Positions 11,921 to 21,834 of a stretch of DNA of 64,000 nt are shown piece after piece. The stretch spans positions 20,522 through 84,521 of the forward strand of contig JAFQFD010000012.1 of NCBI GenBank assembly GCA_017415715.1, in the 5' to 3' direction. The DNA is from Bacteroidales bacterium. GTDB taxonomy: Bacteria; Bacteroidota; Bacteroidia; Bacteroidales; UBA932. A model generated the notes under the pieces. That model had not been told where the DNA came from, ran no database searches, and saw only the letters and a list, made by a program, of their open reading frames with translations. Position 1 is the stretch's first letter, and each line of letters begins with the position of its first letter. The translations under genes and the position numbers were made by a program.

Positions 11921-11948
11921 AGGCGACTAAATTTAGTCGCCTTTTTTT
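11921..11948 (+). terminator. Rho-independent terminator of rubrerythrin
   Basis: A perfect 10-bp inverted repeat (AGGCGACTAA ... TTAGTCGCCT) with a two-base loop is followed by seven T. It ends inside the stop codon of the convergent Hsp15-like gene and may also serve that side. Confidence 0.9.
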
Positions 11949-12336
11949 ATTCATCGTAATCAAGATTTTCCCAAAGTTCTTCCATCTGGCGGCGGTCCTT
12001 CTTGGTCGGACGGCCTGTGCCTCTGTCGCGTTTGAGGAAGAATGTCTCCACCGGAGCACGCAGTTTTGCGATTTCTTCCGGAGGGGTAAGATCCTCGGCG
12101 TAATCTGGCACCAGCTTCGCTCCCTGACGCTTGTCTATCAGCTGAAGGACCTTGTAGGTATATAGGACTGCACCTTTACGTGCGGTTATGACATCGCCTA
12201 CCTTGACGCATTTCGAAGGTTTTACGTCATCTCCGTTGACACGGACCTTTCCTCCCTTGCATGCGTCTGTGGCATCAGTGCGGGTCTTATAGACCCTGAT
12301 CGCCCAAAGATATTTATCTATCCTTACTTCGTCCAT
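11947..12336 (-). CDS. Hsp15-like S4-domain RNA-binding protein
   Basis: A 129-residue protein with an S4 RNA-binding domain at the N-terminus (RIDKYLWAIRVYKTRTDATDAC, then GGKVRVNGDDVKPSKCVKVGD). A basic tail follows (RDRGTGRPTKKDRRQMEEL), typical of the HslR/Hsp15 family. Hsp15 binds free 50S subunits that carry stalled nascent chains and helps recycle them. The tail motif GRPTKKDRR is well conserved in this family. The start codon is one base after the manA stop, so it is the last gene of the long minus-strand run. The stop codon overlaps the T tract of the rubrerythrin terminator. Confidence 0.88.
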   Translation of the reverse strand: MDEVRIDKYLWAIRVYKTRTDATDACKGGKVRVNGDDVKPSKCVKVGDVITARKGAVLYTYKVLQLIDKRQGAKLVPDYAEDLTPPEEIAKLRAPVETFFLKRDRGTGRPTKKDRRQMEELWENLDYDE

Positions 12337-12337
12337 A

Positions 12338-13681
12338 CTAACTGAAGAAGTTCAACGGAGATGCTCCTGCAGGCCCCATAGGCTCGCCATCTGACTCATC
12401 CTCGACGCCTTCATAGTCCTCACCCTCAAGGAATGCCTCCGTATCGGGATCAATGTATCCGTCGACTTCCTCAACAGGCCTGGTCGTACCTTCAAGAAGG
12501 AGTGTGGAACGGTCGCGAGGTACAAGGAAGAAGTCCTGCATGTCTGCCGGAACGAGAACAGTCTCACCCTTTGCAAACTCATAGTTGTCCATGCATGCCT
12601 CGCCCTTCTCGTTTACAGAAGGCACCTGGATCGAAGCAGCACCCTCAAGGCATATGTATACAATGAAGCTCTGGAACTTCTCCGTATAGATATGAAGCGG
12701 ATCTGAAAGGGCTATCTTCGATACCGTAAACTGCGGTACATCTACAAGGGTCTGGACCATCTGTCCCTCCTGACTTTCCTGATGGCAGTGGCATTCGTGT
12801 CCTTCCTCATGGCAGTGACACTCCCCACCCTCATGACAGCCGCAATCGCAGTCATCATCGCAGCCGCAACCGCACGAGCATCCGCTCGGACTGCAGGCCA
12901 CATATGAAGCCTCATCGCCCCAAAGAGGTCCCTTCCTGTAAAGGCCAGGATCAAAAGCACGGTAGTCGATCACATCGATCGCCTCGTCAAGATGAGTCTT
13001 GCGCGCTGTCTTAGGGTCGAATTCCCTGCCCCAGTCATATAATCTGAAGGTCATGTCTGAAGACTCCTGGATCTCTGCTATGAGAAGTCCTCCGTCAGCA
13101 GCGTGGACAGTACCTGGAGTGATATATATGACATCACCCTTTCTTGGCTCGATGACATTGAGGATTTCATCCACAGTACCATTCTTGCACCTGTCATAGA
13201 ACTCCTGGGCAGAAACCTCGCGGGTGAATCCGCAGTACATCTTTGCTCCAGGCTTGGCATCCATCACATACCATATCTCGGCCTTTCCGAGAGAATCATA
13301 TCTCTCAGCCGCGACCTCGTCATCAGGATGCACCTGAACCGAAAGCTTGTCGTTGATATCCAGGAACTTGATGAGCAGAGGGAACTGACGTCCATAATAG
13401 TTATAGACATCCTCTCCGACAATTCTCTCAAGATAGGTCTCCATGAGCTCGCTTATGGTATTGCCTGCAAGCCAGCCATTTGCGACAACGGAATCTTCAA
13501 TGCCCATATCGGCAAGCTCCCAGCTTTCGCCGATAAGCACGTCAGGACCGAGAACTGTCTCGTTGCCGTCTTCGTCGACCTCTACAAAGTGCTTGCCCAT
13601 TTCTGTAACAAGGGCGCTTCCTCCCCATGGTCTCCTTGACGGAACGGGAATGAACTTGAAAGGATATAGTTTCTTTTCCAT
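12338..13681 (-). CDS. manA: Class I mannose-6-phosphate isomerase with Cys/His-rich insert
   Basis: A 447-residue cytoplasmic enzyme that interconverts mannose-6-phosphate and fructose-6-phosphate. The cupin metal site is intact: Q116 and H118 (SVQVHPDDE), E135 (GKAEIWY) and H193 (ITPGTVHAA). The early motif RPWGG and GESWELAD are typical of the short bacterial class I form, normally about 320 residues. This protein is longer, and part of the excess is a striking segment between the two cupin halves (residues 263-300, about 12779-12898). It has 12 Cys and 6 His in 38 residues, with runs such as GCSCGCGC and ECHCHEE. That looks like a metal-binding module. An acidic tail follows the second cupin. 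The stop codon of the YbjN-like gene immediately precedes the start. Confidence 0.9.
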   Translation of the reverse strand: MEKKLYPFKFIPVPSRRPWGGSALVTEMGKHFVEVDEDGNETVLGPDVLIGESWELADMGIEDSVVANGWLAGNTISELMETYLERIVGEDVYNYYGRQFPLLIKFLDINDKLSVQVHPDDEVAAERYDSLGKAEIWYVMDAKPGAKMYCGFTREVSAQEFYDRCKNGTVDEILNVIEPRKGDVIYITPGTVHAADGGLLIAEIQESSDMTFRLYDWGREFDPKTARKTHLDEAIDVIDYRAFDPGLYRKGPLWGDEASYVACSPSGCSCGCGCDDDCDCGCHEGGECHCHEEGHECHCHQESQEGQMVQTLVDVPQFTVSKIALSDPLHIYTEKFQSFIVYICLEGAASIQVPSVNEKGEACMDNYEFAKGETVLVPADMQDFFLVPRDRSTLLLEGTTRPVEEVDGYIDPDTEAFLEGEDYEGVEDESDGEPMGPAGASPLNFFS

Positions 13682-14065
13682 TTACAGATTTCTTATCGTA
13701 TCATAAAAATTGAGACGGGCACCCTTGAGTATTTTCATCATACGAGGTATCAGGTCCTCAAAATCCGGTGTCTGGTCGATGAGGAACTCCGCAACAACCC
13801 AGACGTCATCTTTTCTGACAAGCGCCTTCACTACCTTTACATTGTCATTGACCTGATTTGCAGCATAGAGAGCGTCATCTCTATTGTTATCGTCCACATC
13901 GAAAATACCAGGGAGCGTCAGGCTGAGGTATCGAGGGTCATCTGCATCCCAGAAAACATGATAGCTGAGATCCTCAAAATTGAAGTGGAAACCGTATGGC
14001 TTATCTTCCGGGCGCAGTCCTTCCTTTGAAAGGTACGCACCGAGCTGCTCTTTAATTGTACTCAT
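13682..14065 (-). CDS. YbjN-like protein 1
   Basis: A 127-residue protein resembling YbjN and the type III secretion chaperone fold: short alpha, beta-sheet, and a C-terminal helix (FEDLIPRMMKILKGARLNFYDTI). It is paralogous to the protein at 20101-20469. Both share the plan S-x-x-K/KEQL...YL..EGL.P, then LPGIFDVDDNNRD or MPGIYDVNDENRD, then a Val/Lys strand, W/V-x-E-x-LID-x-TP-x-F-x-DL-PR. The closely spaced DVDDNNRD could bind a cation, but that is only a look. Proteins of this fold act as small chaperones or adaptors. It lies between the kinase-AAA gene and manA. Role unknown, and the pairing with the kinase-AAA protein is inferred from order. Confidence 0.65.
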   Translation of the reverse strand: MSTIKEQLGAYLSKEGLRPEDKPYGFHFNFEDLSYHVFWDADDPRYLSLTLPGIFDVDDNNRDDALYAANQVNDNVKVVKALVRKDDVWVVAEFLIDQTPDFEDLIPRMMKILKGARLNFYDTIRNL

Positions 14066-14084
14066 AATAAATATGTTTAATTGT

Positions 14085-15824
14085 TTAATATCCTATCTTT
14101 CTTCTTGCCTGCTGCGGAGAGCCGAGCGACGACTTGTTGCTCTTCACTGAATTGAGAAGATGGCTGTGACCGATCAGTTCGTCAGCAAGTGCTGCGGTCA
14201 TGGCGGCCTCATTCACAATGAAAGCAAGGTCTGATGCCGAATAGTTGTCGGTAAGCCGTACAAGTTCGTCATAGTCGATATTCTCATCGAGAGGCCTGTC
14301 CTTCAGGTGAAGGGCGAAAATCGCCTTCCTTGTTTCTGGATCCGGAGCAGGGATTTCTATATGAAGGTCCATTCTACCCTTTCTGAGCACAGCAGGATCG
14401 ATGAGTTCTATCCTGTTTGTAGTTCCTATCACGAATATGCCTCTCTGCGAGCAGTTGTTCAGCTGAGCGAGGAATTCATTGACTTCCTCTCCTCTCTGAT
14501 TGGCATCCATCGAGCCTCTGGCCGGAACGAATGAGTCAAACTCGTCAAAGCACAGGATCGAAGGAGCCTTCGCCTCAGCATCCTTGAACAGGCTTGCAAT
14601 CTTGCCCTGTGTTCCGTGGAGATATGTACTGCCGAGATCCGATCCGCTGACCATTGAGAAATTGAACTGGGCCTCCTCGGCGAACTTCTCGGCAAAATAT
14701 GTCTTGCCGCAGCCCGGAGGGCCGTAAAGAATCATGCCGTTCGGCGGTGTGAGCCTGTATTTCTGAGCCTTTTCCTTATCCTTGAGAACCCATATGACTC
14801 TCTTGGTCAGTTCCTCCTTGAGTGTCTCCATTCCTGCCACGTCAGCAAATCCGCCACCGCTCTTCTTCTTGATCTGCACCGTTGTGGCAACCGCACTCTC
14901 GTGAGTTCCCTCCTGAGGTTTTGACTTATGGTCATCGCCATCCTTCCTCGAGAACTGAGGGGCAGACTCTCCTGTCAGAAACTTGAGCAGGTCCGACACA
15001 GTCAGACGCGCACGCGAATCAAAGGCAAGGCCTTCAGTAATCAAGTCAATATCTCGCTTGGACAATCCCTTTCTTTCCAGTTCACGCACTTCAAGAGGCT
15101 GCTTTCTGGCTGCCCTGACAGCCCTCTTCTTTGCAGGATAAGGCATTCCTGCAGTGAGCTCCGCATCCCATGGGGCTACGCCTGTAATCATATGATACAT
15201 GATCGCCATTGCAGAGAACGAATCGCTGGTCTCATCGAAGCATCCGCTGAGAGTCTCCGGCGCGCAATACTGAAGGGCGAGATCCTCGACAGGGAAAGGC
15301 ACAGCACCGCTGAAAGGCTGGCTCAGATGTCCCAGGTCAATGATTCTCGGGACATAAGATCCGGCCGATACCTCCTCGAGGAGTATGTTGCGGGGAGTTA
15401 TGTCATTATGCGTCATTCCAAGGGCATCGTGAATGTATACGAGTCCTTTCAGGACGCAAGTCATTATGTCCTTTGCCTCTTCCCAGGTGTATGTATAATA
15501 TGAGGCAAGGTCTTCCGACAGAAGTTTTCCCCTGAAAAACCTGGTGACTATGTAGCTGTACTCCCTTTCGTCAGACAATGTCACACGACCGTCTGCATGA
15601 TGGGAAATCACATATTCGTTATTGACCTTCCTGGAATATGCTATCTCACGCACCTCTCCGTTCTCCTTCATGGACTCCGGAGTTGCCTCCAGGTCATACA
15701 GCTTCATGAAATATGAGGCTCCGTCCTTGTCAGAGACCCTGTAGGTCGTGTTATAAATGCCTTTCTTGATAAAACATTCGACAGTGTAACCGTCTACTAC
15801 ATCATTGGGATTGAGTATGATCAT
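14085..15824 (-). CDS. Protein kinase-AAA+ ATPase fusion
   Basis: A 579-residue two-domain protein. Residues about 10-285 are a eukaryotic-like Ser/Thr kinase: Lys K41 (YFMKLY), a catalytic loop reading THNDITPRN (D141, N146, with HND in place of HRD), a metal-binding DLG at 163-165 in place of DFG, APE at 188-190 and a TGVAPW motif near 214. Catalytic Lys, Asp and Asn are kept, so it may be active. A charged linker (about 288-325) leads to one AAA+ module: Walker A GPPGCGKT (368-375), Walker B ILCFDEFD (423-430), sensor 1 GTTN (467-470) and arginine-finger region RKGRMD (481-486), then a small helical lid. The AAA part resembles FtsH/Cdc48-type ATPases but has no protease domain and no membrane segment. 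I infer a phosphorylation-controlled unfoldase. Confidence 0.88.
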   Translation of the reverse strand: MIILNPNDVVDGYTVECFIKKGIYNTTYRVSDKDGASYFMKLYDLEATPESMKENGEVREIAYSRKVNNEYVISHHADGRVTLSDEREYSYIVTRFFRGKLLSEDLASYYTYTWEEAKDIMTCVLKGLVYIHDALGMTHNDITPRNILLEEVSAGSYVPRIIDLGHLSQPFSGAVPFPVEDLALQYCAPETLSGCFDETSDSFSAMAIMYHMITGVAPWDAELTAGMPYPAKKRAVRAARKQPLEVRELERKGLSKRDIDLITEGLAFDSRARLTVSDLLKFLTGESAPQFSRKDGDDHKSKPQEGTHESAVATTVQIKKKSGGGFADVAGMETLKEELTKRVIWVLKDKEKAQKYRLTPPNGMILYGPPGCGKTYFAEKFAEEAQFNFSMVSGSDLGSTYLHGTQGKIASLFKDAEAKAPSILCFDEFDSFVPARGSMDANQRGEEVNEFLAQLNNCSQRGIFVIGTTNRIELIDPAVLRKGRMDLHIEIPAPDPETRKAIFALHLKDRPLDENIDYDELVRLTDNYSASDLAFIVNEAAMTAALADELIGHSHLLNSVKSNKSSLGSPQQARRKIGY

Positions 15825-15845
15825 AAGAATTTTCCATTAATCCCT

Positions 15846-15853
15846 CAAATTTA
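15846..15853 (-). promoter_or_regulatory. -7 box (TAAATTTG) before the kinase-AAA gene
   Basis: The minus strand reads TAAATTTG in the 51-base gap after the Ca2+-ATPase stop, 22 bases before the kinase-AAA ATG. It could give separate transcription of kinase-AAA, YbjN-like, manA and the Hsp15-like gene. There is no good -33 element. Confidence 0.4.
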
Positions 15854-15875
15854 TGAAAAATTCTGCAATTACCCG

Positions 15876-18584
15876 CTACTTCATGAAAATAGTTTTGACG
15901 ATACGCTTGACTTCAGGGATCAGCAGCACAACCGAGGTAACTGCAATTATCCTCCACCAGTCACCTGCGGCAAGTGCAGCCACGTCGAAGAATCTGCCTA
16001 AATGATTGACGATAAGGTACTGACCTGCAAGGATGACCAGAACTATCAGATAGAACGCTCCGCTGAAGCTGTTCTTCGAGAACATCGTGAGGAAGAACGA
16101 TCCTTCCGTCCTGTAATTCTTCGCATTGAAGATGTTCCAGAACTGCATCATGACGAACGTAGTGAAGAATATGCCCATCTCATATCTGGTCATTTCTGCC
16201 GATGTCGCACCGATGGTGCCGGCAAGACCGCTCTTTATCGTATCCCAACGGAGAAGCTGAGCGACACTCTGCACATCGGTGTGAAGCATTATCTCCCACA
16301 GCAGGATGAGGACAACAAAGAAGAAGATGCCGCCGAACAGTATCCTTTTGAGCATGGACCTGTCTATGATATGGCTATTGGGATCTCTCGGCTTGTCATC
16401 AAAGACTTTCGGATCAGCCGGAAGCGACGACAATGCCATGGCCGCGAATGTATCCATGATCAGGTTGACCCAAAGCATCTGGGTCACCGTCAGCGGCGAA
16501 TCGACACCGAGGAAGGCTCCGACCAGGACAAGCAGGCAAGCACACACGTTGATTGTCATCTGGAAGTATATGAACCTCCTGATATTCAGATACAAAGAAC
16601 GTCCCCAGAGGATTGCCTTGTTGATACTTACAAACGAATTGTCCAGAATAGTTATGTCGCTGACCTCCTTCGCACGCGCCGTACCGTCTCCCATAGAAAG
16701 ACCAACCTGGGCTTTCTTGAGTGCCAATGCGTCATTTGTTCCGTCTCCTGTCACTGCAACGACCTCACCTCGCTTCTGGAGAAGTCCCACCAGCCTTGAC
16801 TTGTCCTCAGGACGCGCTCTGGACAGAATTCGCAGATCGCCTATCACCTCCATCGCCTCATCATCGGACATTGCGGCAAACTGCTGTCCGGACAACGATC
16901 TTGGCGCTTCGCCATCATCAAACAGTCCGATTTCCGCACCTACATGTTCAGCTGTAGCCGCCACATCGCCGGTCACGACGATCACCTTCACTCCCGCACG
17001 CTTCCTGCAGGTCTCGATAGCCTCTTTCACATCCGGACGGACAGGGTCCGCGATGCCGACTATTCCCGCAAAGCGGAGGTCGTCATCGACTCCCATATGC
17101 TGGACTGCAAACCCCAAGGTCCTCAATGCATTGTGCTGATACTCGGAAAGACGCTCCCTTATCGACGCCGCCTCTTCCGCTTCATATGAGCCATAACACA
17201 TGCTCAGAACATATTCAGGGGCACCCTTCACAAATCTGAACCTCTCACCTGTCACGCGATTGACAGCGATGGTCTCCATATATTTGGTCTGAGTCGAAAA
17301 CGGAACAAGAGACTCCACTTTGTACATGCCACGGATCTGACGATAATCTGCCTTGTATTCATCTGTAATCCATCTCAGAAGCGCACACTCGGTCGGATTG
17401 CCGATCGCCTGAACGCTGCCGTCATCAGCCACGGACAGGTCCGCTGTGGAATTCACGGAGATTCCATGCATTATCATCTCCTCGTCACATGCGAACTCCT
17501 TAGACAGCACGCTCATCCTGTTCATCGTCAGAGTTCCCGTCTTGTCTGTACAGATGACAGTGGTCGCGCCCATGGTCTCGCAAGCATGAAGCTTGCGTAC
17601 CAGATTCTTGACCTTCAGCATCTTACGCATGCTGAGAGCCAGACTTATCGTAACGCTCATCGGAAGGCCTTCAGGCACTGCGACAACAATAAGCGTCACC
17701 GCTATCATTATGGAATTAAGCGTATAGTCAAATATCTGCAGAAGGTCCGAATTATTTGCCGGATCACCATCAAATGCGAAATAATACACAGTCCTTCCTA
17801 TGACTATCAGAGCTGCCAGGACATAGCTTATCTTTGTGATCAGATTGCCGAGATCGCCAAGTTGCCTGTTGAGAGGAGTCTCAACCTCTTCATCTTCCAT
17901 TATCTTCAGTGCACCTTTACCTTCTTCTGTATCGACACCGACAGCCGTAACCCGGTACAGACAGAAGCCTTCGAGCACGATGGAACCCCTGAGAAGAAAA
18001 TCGGCATCATAGGCCGCTTCTTCTTCGGCCTGTGACTTGTCCTCATACTTCATAGCATAAGGTTCCCCGGTAAAGGCTGACTCATCCATCCTCAACTGCT
18101 CGCAAGAGAGCACGCGTCCGTCGGCCGGCACCTCGTCTCCGCCTTCCAGGCGGACGATGTCGCCGACCGCCACGTCAGACTTCTTTATTGTCATAAGACG
18201 AGGCTGGGACTTGTCATTCTTCCTGCGCACCACTTTGACAGGTCTGTCATCCTTGACCTGATTCAGCACGTCGAACTCCTTGTCCGCCTTTGTCTCGAAT
18301 ATGAATCCGATGCCAGTCGACAGGAATATGGCCATGAGGATTCCCGCAGGCTCAAACAGGAGCTGATAATCGTGGGTATGATAGAACTCATAAGCCGTCA
18401 CTACACATGACAGCCCCAATATCACAAGCAATATTATTATAAGGGGATCCTTGAACTTGTCAAGATATCTGAGCCACAGCGGACGCTTAGGCGGAGCCGG
18501 TATCACATTCTTTCCCACCGCGTCCTTGACTCTATGAGAGGACTCAGAAAGACATTCCTTCCATAAATTATAATCTGCTGACAT
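15876..18584 (-). CDS. Ca2+-transporting P-type ATPase (PMCA/SERCA type)
   Basis: A 902-residue P2-type cation pump. Motifs in order: actuator loop TGEP near 172, PEGLPM in the fourth membrane helix, the phosphorylation site DKTGTLT near 341, KGAPE in the nucleotide domain, TGD near 570, and GDGTNDALALKKA. The C-terminal block has six hydrophobic segments, with NLIMDTFAAMALSS in the sixth helix, a form of the Ca2+ site. The acidic and Asn residues there favour Ca2+ or Mn2+ over Na+/K+. The frame extends to an ATG at 18626, but M15 (18584, MSADYNLWKE) is preferred because it follows a purine-rich site and the longer start lies above a promoter-like box. It lies between the TerB-like and kinase-AAA genes, where export of Ca2+ may be tied to their function. 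Confidence 0.92.
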   Translation of the reverse strand: MSADYNLWKECLSESSHRVKDAVGKNVIPAPPKRPLWLRYLDKFKDPLIIILLVILGLSCVVTAYEFYHTHDYQLLFEPAGILMAIFLSTGIGFIFETKADKEFDVLNQVKDDRPVKVVRRKNDKSQPRLMTIKKSDVAVGDIVRLEGGDEVPADGRVLSCEQLRMDESAFTGEPYAMKYEDKSQAEEEAAYDADFLLRGSIVLEGFCLYRVTAVGVDTEEGKGALKIMEDEEVETPLNRQLGDLGNLITKISYVLAALIVIGRTVYYFAFDGDPANNSDLLQIFDYTLNSIMIAVTLIVVAVPEGLPMSVTISLALSMRKMLKVKNLVRKLHACETMGATTVICTDKTGTLTMNRMSVLSKEFACDEEMIMHGISVNSTADLSVADDGSVQAIGNPTECALLRWITDEYKADYRQIRGMYKVESLVPFSTQTKYMETIAVNRVTGERFRFVKGAPEYVLSMCYGSYEAEEAASIRERLSEYQHNALRTLGFAVQHMGVDDDLRFAGIVGIADPVRPDVKEAIETCRKRAGVKVIVVTGDVAATAEHVGAEIGLFDDGEAPRSLSGQQFAAMSDDEAMEVIGDLRILSRARPEDKSRLVGLLQKRGEVVAVTGDGTNDALALKKAQVGLSMGDGTARAKEVSDITILDNSFVSINKAILWGRSLYLNIRRFIYFQMTINVCACLLVLVGAFLGVDSPLTVTQMLWVNLIMDTFAAMALSSLPADPKVFDDKPRDPNSHIIDRSMLKRILFGGIFFFVVLILLWEIMLHTDVQSVAQLLRWDTIKSGLAGTIGATSAEMTRYEMGIFFTTFVMMQFWNIFNAKNYRTEGSFFLTMFSKNSFSGAFYLIVLVILAGQYLIVNHLGRFFDVAALAAGDWWRIIAVTSVVLLIPEVKRIVKTIFMK

Positions 18585-18606
18585 CTGCTTCCGTTTTTGA
18601 ACAGTG

Positions 18607-18614
18607 CAAATATC
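18607..18614 (-). promoter_or_regulatory. Weak -7 box (GATATTTG) before the Ca2+-ATPase
   Basis: The minus strand reads GATATTTG, seven of eight positions against TAnnTTTG counting the free ones, 22 bases before the ATG at 18584. It lies inside the longer frame, which argues for the shorter start. Confidence 0.3.
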
Positions 18615-18664
18615 CGCATTAATCATGCAAGACTGCCACGAAATCCAAGCGTTTGGATTTTAAA

Positions 18665-20101
18665 TCAGAGAAGACGTCTCCACAGGTCTGAAGACGAGAG
18701 CATCCCGACTTCCCTGGAAAGATCCGAACATACGCGGAACGAGGCTATGTCCGCGGCGATTCCATAAGATTTGGATTCGCTGTCAAAGGAAACGCAATAG
18801 CGCTCCGGATCGGCAAGCGCCCCGGAATCAGCAAATCCTTTATTTATATAATTCTTCAGAGAACTCCTGTTCCTGAACATACTTTCTATATATCCGAGGA
18901 ACTTCCTGCCTGATGCCTCTTTTGAAGATACAGCGGAATATATCACTACGGCATTATACACAAGCCGGGCAACCTCGGAAGCTTCCTTTCGCAATGATAC
19001 CATGAACTCTTCCATGGAGAACGGACCGTCATCAGGAATGCCTCCCAGATAGTTGAGTGCCTGCTCAAACAGTTTCTGGCTTACGCCTGCAGCACCATAT
19101 CTGAGAAGAAGGAGATAGAACGAGCGTGCTTGTGGAGACGACTCGAACGTGATACGAGCCATATCCTGCTCCATCAGGCAGAACTCGTATCGGTCATCAA
19201 GGACGATGCGGTTCACCTTCTTTATTGCTCTGCTCATATAATCATACAGGATCTTGTAGCAGCCCTCATATGATATCTCCTCGGAGTGATTGTCAAACTT
19301 TGAGATGAAAGAGTATATCCTTTCCTTTACATTCTCCCGCATGTCGACTACAAAGAAGTCCACACCTTTGCTCAGGTTGTTGTCATCATCAAGGGAGTAA
19401 CTGTCCCTGATCTTGAGCAGGAGAAATGACGATGTGCCCAGAGTACTCACATCAATCTTGTATCTAGAGAGCAGGAAATAGAAGAACCCATCCGAATTGA
19501 CTTCAGAAAGTCGGGCTGCCTCTCTCGTGATTCCCGCAGGAACGAGATACCTCATGGCCTCGTCCAGCAGCTCTCTTTTCTTCTGTTCGCCACGGAGCAC
19601 ATCCGGGAGATAGAAGAACTCAAGCCCGAGGTCATTCAATGACTTTGTGACCAGAAGCTTGTCATATTCGTTATCAAAAAGCCGATGTACTTCGGCATTA
19701 GGGGACGATTCGAGATAAAGTATCTGCTTCAGCGAAGTCTCGTCCATGACTCCGGATGAAGACACGACATTGCACCAGTCCCTGGTCTGCGGATTAAGCG
19801 ACATGTAGACAGACGTAAACAATATGTTTTCGTCATAGTCTATGTCATTGTCGACACACATGACCTCGGACAGGATGCCAAGCACTGCCTCTGCAGAATA
19901 CGAATCAAGCTCCTTCAGGCTGCTGACAGCCTGTTGGAGCGTGATGTAATGTATTCTGTCAAGATCGTCCTGCGAAAGCTCAAAGCGCTCACGCAGAGAA
20001 GACAATATGCCGACTTCCCCGCCGTGTATCCTGCCGTCAGCCTTTACAAGGTCGACGGCGATACGCAGAACGGCAAGCTTGTTCAGATATGTCAGATGCA
20101 T
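18665..20101 (-). CDS. TerB-like domain protein
   Basis: A 478-residue soluble protein of unknown function. The first 105 residues look like a TerB domain: LRIAVDLVKADGRIHGGEVGIL and its second half ILSEVMCVDNDIDYDENILF, two helical hairpins with conserved acidic residues that bind metal in TerB. The middle is mostly helical. Near 330, ESSPQARSFYLLLLRYGAAGVS resembles a short domain (PxxxAxYLLFLxxPEGI) found at the ends of Bacteroidota regulatory proteins. The C-terminal 60 residues have a strand-rich finish. No enzyme motif or membrane segment was seen. The start ATG overlaps the stop of the upstream YbjN-like gene by one base (TAATG), so translation is likely coupled. TerB proteins take part in envelope and chemical-stress complexes that often include kinases and Ca2+-binding partners. 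Confidence 0.6.
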   Translation of the reverse strand: MHLTYLNKLAVLRIAVDLVKADGRIHGGEVGILSSLRERFELSQDDLDRIHYITLQQAVSSLKELDSYSAEAVLGILSEVMCVDNDIDYDENILFTSVYMSLNPQTRDWCNVVSSSGVMDETSLKQILYLESSPNAEVHRLFDNEYDKLLVTKSLNDLGLEFFYLPDVLRGEQKKRELLDEAMRYLVPAGITREAARLSEVNSDGFFYFLLSRYKIDVSTLGTSSFLLLKIRDSYSLDDDNNLSKGVDFFVVDMRENVKERIYSFISKFDNHSEEISYEGCYKILYDYMSRAIKKVNRIVLDDRYEFCLMEQDMARITFESSPQARSFYLLLLRYGAAGVSQKLFEQALNYLGGIPDDGPFSMEEFMVSLRKEASEVARLVYNAVVIYSAVSSKEASGRKFLGYIESMFRNRSSLKNYINKGFADSGALADPERYCVSFDSESKSYGIAADIASFRVCSDLSREVGMLSSSDLWRRLL

Positions 20102-20469
20102 TATTCTCCGAACTGGTTATATGCATGCTGGAGGATACGGAGAGCGCGAGGTACCAGGTCGCTGAACACCGGAGTAGAGTCGATGAGCATCTCGCAATAG
20201 AGCCATACAGACTCGTCGTTCACAAGACTTGCCTTGGCCACCTTGACACCTGCATTCATCTTGTCCATCGCCCTGTAGACGAAATCCCTGTTTTCATCAT
20301 TCACGTCATAGATTCCCGGCATCACAAGCTGGAAGAACTCTGGATCTTCATCATTGTTGAAGTAAACGAAATTCTTCATCTGGTAACGGAATGTAATACC
20401 GAAAGACTCTTCGGTAGGCTGAAGGCCTTCGCTGCGAAGGTACTCCAGCATCTTTTTAGTGTTGCTCAT
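20101..20469 (-). CDS. YbjN-like protein 2
   Basis: A 122-residue paralogue of the protein at 13682-14065. It shares MLEYLRSEGLQPTEES, VMPGIYDVNDENRDFVY, a Lys/Val strand, EMLIDSTPVFSDLVPRAL and a C-terminal helix. The two proteins are alike along the whole length but clearly diverged, so the duplication is old. This copy precedes the TerB-like gene, with a one-base stop-start overlap, and follows pgi by 24 bases. The fold suggests a chaperone or adaptor. Two copies flanking a kinase, an ATPase and a TerB-like protein suggest that each serves one large partner, but no partner is shown by the sequence. Confidence 0.65.
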   Translation of the reverse strand: MSNTKKMLEYLRSEGLQPTEESFGITFRYQMKNFVYFNNDEDPEFFQLVMPGIYDVNDENRDFVYRAMDKMNAGVKVAKASLVNDESVWLYCEMLIDSTPVFSDLVPRALRILQHAYNQFGE

Positions 20470-20493: not shown

Positions 20494-21834
20494 TTAGAGT
20501 CTGGCCTTAAGCGCCTCTGCCTGAGCCTCGTATCCAGGCTTGCCAAGAAGGGCGAACATGTTCTTCTTGTATGCCTCCACGCCAGGCTGGTCAAACGGAT
20601 TCACGCCAAGGATGTAGCCGCTGATTCCGCATGCCTTCTCGAAGAAGTAGAAAAGGGCTCCGAGGTTATGCTCGTCGATGCACTCGATAGAGAGCGAGAG
20701 CTGAGGTACGCCGCCGTCGATGTGAGCGAGCTTTGTTCCGAGTTCTGCCATCGCGTTGCACTCCTCCACGTGCTTTCCTGCAAGGAAGTTAAGACCGTCG
20801 AGATTCTGAGGATCGCTCTCGATGAGCATAGAGCGTCTGCTCTTCTCCACTGTAACAACAGTCTCCATGAGGGTGCGCTCACCGTCCTGGATGTACTGGC
20901 CCATAGAGTGAAGGTCTGTGGTGAAGTTCACTGATGCCGGGAAGATGCCGAGGCCGTCCTTGCCTTCAGACTCTCCGTAGAGCTGCTTCCACCACTCGCC
21001 GAGGTATGTGAGCTTAGGGTTATATGCAACGAGGATCTCGATCTTCTTGCCCTGTGCATAAAGTGCGTTACGCATTGCGGCATACTGCACTGCAGGGTTG
21101 CACTCGCACTTCTTCGCGCAGAGCTCCTCCATCTCGAGGGCTCCCTGGAGCATTGCGTTCATGTCGAATCCTGCGAGAACTATAGGGAGGATTCCTACCG
21201 GAGTGAGCACTGAGAAGCGTCCTCCTACGTTGTCCTCGATCACGAATGTCTTGTATCCCTCCTGGGTAGAAAGCGACTTGAGGGCTCCGCGGGCCTTGTC
21301 AGTAACAGCCACGATGCGCTCTGCAGCCTCTGCCTTTCCGTATGTATCCTCAAGATATTTCTTCACGAGGCGGAATGCCACTGCAGGCTCCGTTGTGGTA
21401 CCTGACTTCGAGATCACCACGCATGCTGCGTTTCTCTCCTGCACGAGATCCATGAGCTCGCACATATATTCTTCTGAAAGGTTCTGTCCCGCGAATACGA
21501 TTTCAGGAGCAGCGCCCTTTGTCTTGAGCTGCTTTGCGAACTGATGCGAAAGAGCCTCGAGAGCGCACTTTGCGCCGAGATATGAACCTCCGATGCCGAT
21601 GACCACGACGAGATCCACGCCCTTTGCCTTCCATGCATCCCTTACCGCCTCGCACTCAGCGACAAGACCGCTTTTGAGAGTCTCTGAAGGAAGATGCTTC
21701 CATCCGAGGAAGTCATTTCCCTTGCCGGTCTCGTTTTCAAGAACTTCAAGAGCTGCGAGAGCCTTCTCTACATATGCCTGATATTCTGCATCTTTTACAA
21801 AGGAGCTGCAACCTCCAAGATTTACCTTTACCAT
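20494..21834 (-). CDS. pgi: Glucose-6-phosphate isomerase
   Basis: A 446-residue glycolytic enzyme that interconverts glucose-6-phosphate and fructose-6-phosphate. The SIS sugar-phosphate site is visible as VVIGIGGSYLGAKCALEAL and VVISKSGTTTEPAVAFR. The active-site loop is GRFSVLTPVGILPI. The later ESEGKDGLGIFPASVNFTTDLHSMGQ and the C-terminal NPFDQPGVEAYK are typical of the short bacterial and archaeal-like Pgi of about 440-450 residues. Codon use is strongly biased, as in other highly expressed genes here (rubrerythrin, nqrA). It is the first gene of the minus-strand run that leads on to the YbjN/TerB/Ca2+-ATPase block. I saw no consensus promoter directly upstream. Confidence 0.95.
   Translation of the reverse strand: MVKVNLGGCSSFVKDAEYQAYVEKALAALEVLENETGKGNDFLGWKHLPSETLKSGLVAECEAVRDAWKAKGVDLVVVIGIGGSYLGAKCALEALSHQFAKQLKTKGAAPEIVFAGQNLSEEYMCELMDLVQERNAACVVISKSGTTTEPAVAFRLVKKYLEDTYGKAEAAERIVAVTDKARGALKSLSTQEGYKTFVIEDNVGGRFSVLTPVGILPIVLAGFDMNAMLQGALEMEELCAKKCECNPAVQYAAMRNALYAQGKKIEILVAYNPKLTYLGEWWKQLYGESEGKDGLGIFPASVNFTTDLHSMGQYIQDGERTLMETVVTVEKSRRSMLIESDPQNLDGLNFLAGKHVEECNAMAELGTKLAHIDGGVPQLSLSIECIDEHNLGALFYFFEKACGISGYILGVNPFDQPGVEAYKKNMFALLGKPGYEAQAEALKARL

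Follow-up and report, generated by a model that had tools for sequence, protein, structure and literature searches.

A TerB-domain protein paired with a predicted PMCA-type Ca2+ pump, beside a kinase-AAA+ fusion, in a likely Bacteroidales operon

A stretch of 64,000 nucleotides from a Bacteroidales bacterium (GCA_017415715.1, contig JAFQFD010000012.1, positions 20,522 to 84,521; hereafter the window) carries on its minus strand a row of five genes, which encode a TerB-domain protein, a predicted Ca2+ pump, a protein kinase fused to an AAA+ ATPase and two small YbjN-like proteins. These five genes are two modules, not one fixed five-gene system: a TerB protein that travels with its pump, and a kinase-AAA fusion of a wider family, here with YbjN-like neighbours. 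The first-pass annotation of this DNA had proposed all five as a possible stress system, with the ATPase, the kinase-AAA protein and the TerB-like protein as a possible Ca2+-responsive unit; as one obligate system the five are ruled out, since the two modules occur apart. All five genes were confirmed as open reading frames (ORFs) in a check of the window and are listed here in its coordinates, with the codons of the fusion's tail.

20101..20469, minus strand: YbjN/TY-chaperone-like protein 1, 122 amino acids (aa); its stop overlaps the TerB-protein start by one base
18665..20101, minus strand: TerB-domain protein, 478 aa; TerB head at about 1-105, C-terminal part at about 110-478
15876..18626, minus strand: predicted PMCA-type Ca2+ P-type ATPase, 916 aa, or 902 aa from 18584
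14085..15824, minus strand: kinase-AAA+ fusion, 579 aa; kinase 21-281, AAA 364-492, AAA lid 515-545, tail RRKIGY
14085..14099, minus strand: codons of the fusion's IGF-like tail, stop included
13682..14065, minus strand: YbjN/TY-chaperone-like protein 2, 127 aa

The pairing of the TerB protein with the pump was followed across the genus in an even sample of 200 genomes from a larger group, taken as one set for the TerB, pump and fusion counts (G and L numbers denote genomes and loci). The TerB protein was matched in nine of them at E ≤ 1e-8, seven matches being strong (7.0e-102 or better), and the pump in eight (E ≤ 1e-100). All seven strong-TerB genomes (G000, which is the window's own, G021, G080, G090, G091, G106 and G210) hold the pump, and among the other 193 only G024 does, with a pump 38% identical and no TerB match (Fisher 3.5e-12, kinship ignored). 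The line for a strong match was set once the gap from 7.0e-102 to 3.5e-11 had become apparent; it leaves out G030 and G188 (E ≤ 1e-8, 26-28% identity, partial) and G025 (1.6e-4), for which no pump was found among the pump matches. Because the pumps of five of the seven genomes are 56-73% identical to that of the window, these five are not near-copies of its genome. The two genes adjoin in five of the seven (G000, G090, G080, G106 and G021), lie about 10 kb apart in G091 and are found on different contigs in G210; they also adjoin in G056, from another family of the order, where the TerB protein and the pump are 25% and 48% identical. That the TerB protein and the pump belong together, as first suggested from the window, is thus borne out by a near-perfect co-occurrence. 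A scan of 84,980 species with the TerB protein as single query, sensitive to close relatives only, returned two loci, taken as those of G090 and G080, in metagenome-derived Bacteroidales genomes from the rectum of roe deer and of water buffalo.

The window ATPase is a predicted PMCA-type Ca2+ pump. It scores 592.2 bits against NCBIfam TIGR01517 (PMCA type; cut-off 507.05), its closest solved relatives are plasma-membrane Ca2+ pumps of plants and animals, and it contains PEGLP (318), DKTGT (361), TGDGTNDA (626) and WVNLIMDT (719), which we take to mark the Ca2+ (ion) site and the phosphorylation site; the earlier call of a calcium P-type ATPase holds on both the profile score and the catalytic and ion-site motifs. 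Homologues favour the start at 18584 (902 aa) over that at 18626 (916 aa). The TerB assignment is carried by the family. Alone, the window protein reaches 21.3 bits against Pfam TerB (PF05099), below the gathering score of 24.4, but 6 of 10 relatives in the TerB-protein alignment match TerB at E ≤ 0.1 (best 7.6e-6), and the family profile matches the solved PG_1108 (2h5n), which we take to be a TerB-like structure, at 3.3e-11 over residues 8-105. The acidic positions D22, E29, D84 and E91 are invariant across the 10 alignment rows. The TerB call, sub-threshold for the single sequence, therefore survives profile search with the 10-row family alignment and the comparison with 2h5n, with the acidic motifs in its support. 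For the protein from residue ~110 onward, searches of Pfam, NCBIfam, PADLOC and the PDB sequences gave no match.

Both halves of the kinase-AAA+ fusion lie above their Pfam cut-offs, the kinase (PF00069) with 85.9 bits against 31.7 and the AAA part with 117.6 bits, and the active-site residues are present (K41, HND 139-141, DLG 163-165, Walker A and B), in agreement with the initial description of the gene. The AAA part is closest to the CDC48/FtsH class. An FtsH-like protease is ruled out by the single AAA module, the absent peptidase domain and a score of 169.3 against 600 bits for FtsH, and CDC48 proper misses its cut-off (175.2 vs 802.65 bits), with a single AAA module and not two. By sequence, the fusion is a member of a wider Bacteroidota family: it was matched at E ≤ 1e-60 in 20 of the 200 genus genomes (including G136 and G086, whose called gene lacks the kinase half), and a profile search at E ≤ 1e-70 found it in 14 of 344 genomes from the order and in 7 of 395 from the phylum; each count includes the genome of the window.

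Neighbourhoods of the fusion were compared at 39 loci. A YbjN-like gene lies beside it at 12 (the window, L036, L037, L039, L068, L069, L070, L077, L115, L121, L123 and L124), an Hsp70-like gene at 14 and a ClpP gene at six, five of these without YbjN (L038, L074, L075, L076 and L078) and L039 with both; eight loci have none of the three (L071, L072, L073, L081, L082, L101, L119 and L122, with L081 the sole called gene on its contig). A maximum-likelihood tree built from 32 full-length fusions places the 13 Hsp70-linked proteins, together with that of L119, which has no Hsp70 gene, on one side of a branch with support 100/98 and the YbjN- and ClpP-linked fusions on the opposite side. Both window YbjN-like proteins, 37% identical to each other, are sub-threshold for YbjN in Pfam; at E ≤ 0.1, five of 10 family members match YbjN (best 1.1e-8) and six match TY-Chap1 (best 2.2e-8), so that the YbjN-like call stands for the family in profile search, though not for either window protein by itself. 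The window's own genome has a second fusion and YbjN-like pair (L036, 8615-10776; G000:C14) with no TerB protein or pump adjacent. At L123 (7547-11276) and L124 (8154 onward), the called relatives of the fusion (331 and 340 aa) consist of the AAA part only, with a pair of YbjN-like genes after each; upstream of the L123 relative lies another AAA protein, and one of the two YbjN-like proteins of L123 has no Pfam match by itself.

A further feature of the fusion family is an IGF-like tail, defined as a C-terminal [IVL]G[FYL] followed by at most 7 residues. It is present in 28 of the 32 full-length fusions (the exceptions being L039, L098, L099 and L100); among other AAA proteins from related genomes the count is 0 of 23, and among the neighbouring proteins 8 of 421. 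With a stricter pattern requiring a basic residue before it, the counts are 28 of 40 fusions, fragments included, and 1 of 421. The tail is conserved whatever the neighbour gene. ClpX and ClpA dock into hydrophobic sites of ClpP by an internal IGF loop (excerpts of PMC9035409). Directly after the fusion of G008, G143, G104, G132 and G082 lies clpP, the only ClpP there at E ≤ 1e-10, and G021 has a housekeeping ClpP as well as a second ClpP beside the fusion, 41% identical to the query, with both types matching PF00574. In G000, G021, G034 and G090, clpP lies within tig-clpP-clpX (by the gene names tested, tig in three of the four). No ClpX was detected in the six genomes with the ClpP-linked fusion branch (G008, G082, G104, G132, G143 and G201; 78-94% complete), all of which have ClpP, that of G201 lying elsewhere and not by the fusion; the corresponding figure for other genomes is 4 of 30 (Fisher 1.1e-4, kinship ignored). 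In the tree of 32, from which the split fusion of G082 was left out, the other five of these fusions group in a single clade, so the apparent loss of ClpX in these genomes may have happened only once.

Genes of TerB type are found with the Hsp70-linked fusions as well. A cassette absent from the window is conserved across several families of the phylum (L040, L041, L079, L096, L097, L098, L116, L117 and L120), its usual order being a 490-610 aa protein, a ~300 aa coiled-coil protein, an Hsp70-like protein, the fusion and a TerB-like protein. Over 14 loci, these partners are present in 13, 12, 14 and 11 cases, respectively; the Hsp70-like count is by clustering, with the gene partial at the contig end in L011, and L099 stops at its contig end. 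Four Hsp70-like proteins tested score 193.6-229.1 bits with PF00012, and all 11 TerB-like proteins match TerB at E ≤ 0.1 (best 1.1e-6), their profile matching 2h5n at 0.0015. The ~300 aa protein can be read with moderate confidence as GrpE-like: this reading reached 64% with an alignment containing one wrong-frame row and 40% with 12 clean rows, controls staying at or below 2%, while Pfam gave GrpE for 2 of 12 (best 0.005), DivIC for 3 of 12 and many coiled-coil families too; one sub-threshold genome match (0.0096) also bears on it. The 490-610 aa protein might just be J-like, with hhalign values of 71-84% over 22 columns (controls at most 2%), 31-53% in an alignment with some wrong-frame rows, and no DnaJ match in 13 of 13 Pfam scans. 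In G199 (L181, 2987-7287), a fusion that lacks the IGF-like tail has FHA, PP2C and M48 peptidase genes as neighbours, and the C-terminal part of the M48 peptidase matches TerB weakly (14.3 bits, below cut-off).

Within the window, the five-gene row is real and on one strand, as the first-pass annotation had it, but it extends further than was thought, to one gene upstream and two downstream.

20494..21834, minus strand: pgi, glucose-6-phosphate isomerase, likely the first operon gene (PF00342, 95 bits); order kept in G090
12338..13681, minus strand: manA-like, mannose-6-phosphate isomerase-like, likely in the same operon (PF20511, 37.9 bits); order kept in G090
11947..12336, minus strand: S4-domain gene, Hsp15-like, likely in the same operon; order kept in G090

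From 5' to 3', the order is pgi, YbjN-like 1, the TerB protein, the Ca2+ ATPase, the fusion, YbjN-like 2, the manA-like gene and the S4-domain/Hsp15-like gene, and because the gaps between them are 24, -1, 38 (or 80), 51, 19, 0 and 1 nt, the eight genes likely form one operon. The -1 is the one-base TAATG overlap noticed at first pass between the stop of YbjN-like 1 and the TerB start, present at 20101. The close relative G090 has all eight genes in the same order, with 88-99% protein identity where measured, and conservation of gene order in relatives means that the row is no ORF artefact. The S4-domain protein scores 63.4 bits for Hsp15, under the cut-off of 148. A Bacteroidota-type promoter pattern had two matches in the window and none upstream of this operon. 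Among the five proteins of the row, the pump is the only membrane protein, the fusion, the TerB protein and both YbjN-like proteins being without a hydrophobic segment of transmembrane strength. The manA-like protein has a Cys/His-rich insertion of 40 residues (12776-12895, minus strand), with a similar stretch in G090.

These observations suggest a mechanism that we put forward tentatively, as plausible though somewhat short of probable, in which a Ca2+-sensing TerB regulator of the pump and a kinase-set, ClpP-docking unfoldase would share one operon under stress. First, the TerB protein would be a cytosolic partner specific to the PMCA-type pump. Its TerB head would bind Ca2+ (or another divalent metal) through the acidic motifs, and the metal-bound protein would alter pump activity. 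The eukaryotic PMCA Ca2+ pump is regulated by calmodulin, of which the TerB protein would be the bacterial counterpart. From the domains, motifs, co-occurrence and adjacency observed for this module, we infer metal binding, direct contact and the direction of control. Second, the kinase-AAA protein could be a ring-shaped unfoldase whose activity is set by its kinase through phosphorylation of itself, an adaptor or a client; the YbjN-like proteins would hand it clients, and the C-terminal IGF-like tail would dock it on a partner, most likely ClpP. Here it is from domains, active-site residues, tail and gene linkage that we infer every activity, the kinase targets and the docking. Finally, the shared operon would connect Ca2+ handling with the quality control of proteins during stress. 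A broader proposal, which we regard as unlikely, is that the kinase-AAA family represents a Clp unfoldase of a new class, a ring of CDC48/FtsH type under the control of its own kinase that sits on ClpP by its IGF tail and, in one genus branch, has taken the place of ClpX, and that in the window this machine is coupled to intracellular Ca2+ through YbjN adaptors and a TerB Ca2+ sensor gating the PMCA-type pump.

A number of results weigh against these proposals. The pump of G106 is broken by a stop, the seven strong-TerB genomes are 71-100% complete, and a search with the TerB family was positive in one of 395 phylum genomes, the window's own, so that the TerB-pump pair is rare. The tail of the fusion resembles the IGF motif but is C-terminal, whereas the known motif is an internal loop, and the G021 fusion, which lies beside a ClpP, ends in VSGL. 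ClpX was likewise not found in G018, G019 and G023, which have no fusion match, or in G199, whose fusion lacks the tail; neither case fits simple replacement. In several Hsp70-linked fusions (e.g. L040, L011, L041 and L096), the aspartate of the catalytic HxD reads Glu, so that their kinase may be inactive and kinase activity may not be general across the family. The link between the modules is also limited: the fusion occurs in four of the seven TerB+pump genomes against 16 of the other 193, a modest association (Fisher 0.002, kinship ignored), and is linked to the pair in only three (the window, G090 and G021), two of them close relatives. With 16 of the 20 fusion genomes lacking the pump pair, the reading of the five genes as one set, offered by the first-pass annotation as a possibility, was not supported.

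These last figures also favour the main rival, a chance neighbourhood, in which the TerB-pump pair would be real and the kinase-AAA/YbjN module would have landed alongside it in one small lineage with no role in Ca2+ handling. We consider this a real possibility, given also that the pump pair occurs without the fusion in three of seven genomes, that pair and fusion lie on different contigs in G106, and that the operon includes housekeeping genes; it sits poorly, however, with G021, which holds both modules still linked although they are diverged (TerB protein 38%, pump 55% and fusion 44% identical) and their gene order differs, and with the presence of TerB-type genes beside the Hsp70-linked members of this fusion family. 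TerB-type genes thus accompany the fusion in two well-supported settings, the window type and 11 of 14 Hsp70 cassettes, and weakly in G199, which is the best argument that the two modules of the window belong together.

Alternatively, the fusion and the YbjN-like proteins could serve the pump itself, as machinery for its quality control or assembly that acts in folding, insertion or turnover of the ATPase. The adjacency of the genes, the CDC48/FtsH class of the AAA part and the description of YbjN-type proteins as peptide-binding chaperones (excerpts of PMC9503650) are consistent with such a role, but the fusion has no transmembrane segment, usually occurs without the pump and keeps its tail whatever its neighbour, and we find this explanation quite unlikely. 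An anti-phage or conflict system, with the kinase-AAA protein, TerB and the chaperones as a sensor-effector set, is improbable: it could account for the patchy distribution of the fusion, its single-domain PADLOC matches (IetA 110.9 bits, mad6 90.9 bits) and the G199 cassette with FHA, PP2C and an NTPase-like gene, but the NCBIfam cut-offs are far off (IteA 95.9 vs 510, MADS6 56.9 vs 460), the signature-protein cut-offs ruling out the known IetAS and MADS systems, the other four proteins have no PADLOC match, nuclease and toxin domains are absent among the eight operon proteins searched, and the operon is of a housekeeping kind.

Through its association with a PMCA-type pump, the TerB protein becomes a direct candidate regulator of Ca2+ pumping in bacteria. 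Should it indeed regulate the pump, this would assign a definite role to TerB, a domain whose function is unclear. For gut Bacteroidales, the kinase-AAA family suggests an entry into the Clp protease that is under kinase control, in view of the IGF-like tail conserved in the family, the ClpP genes next to some fusions and the host genomes in which ClpX was not detected. In the searched part of the open-access literature, no description of the TerB-pump pair or the kinase-AAA family was found.

Parts of both modules have counterparts in known systems. Ter stress systems comprise TerB, TerC and TerD as well as TerY-P triads (excerpts of PMC7824862 and PMC11090510), and the window block resembles them in its TerB domain, nearby kinase genes and proposed metal link; its kinase, however, is fused to an AAA module and not to a zinc ribbon, and no TerC, TerD, TelA or TerY-type protein was found among the eight operon proteins searched. 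In GTPase-centred and CoCoNuT systems, Hsp70 stands beside a motor NTPase (excerpts of PMC7159879 and PMC11090510), as Hsp70 (and possibly GrpE) does in the sister branch of the fusion, although there the motor is a kinase-AAA fusion with an added TerB-like gene, and the window block is without Hsp70. YbjN-type proteins, described as peptide-binding chaperones, occur with ADP-ribose systems (excerpts of PMC9503650), whereas the small window genes of the same family have the kinase-AAA fusion as their partner. ClpXP combines an AAA+ unfoldase with an IGF-type motif (excerpts of PMC9035409); the fusion has an IGF-like motif, and clpP adjoins it in some relatives, but that motif is a C-terminal tail, the AAA part of the fusion is of the CDC48/FtsH class and carries a kinase, and docking on ClpP is here a prediction. 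FtsH and CDC48-type AAA proteins are the closest AAA sequence class, from which the fusion differs by one AAA module, the absent peptidase and the N-terminal kinase. Finally, where the candidate regulator differs from calmodulin in being a TerB-domain protein with a 370-residue C-terminal part and no EF-hand protein, the likeness to PMCA and calmodulin lies in a PMCA-type pump and a small acidic protein of metal-binding type by which that pump would be regulated.

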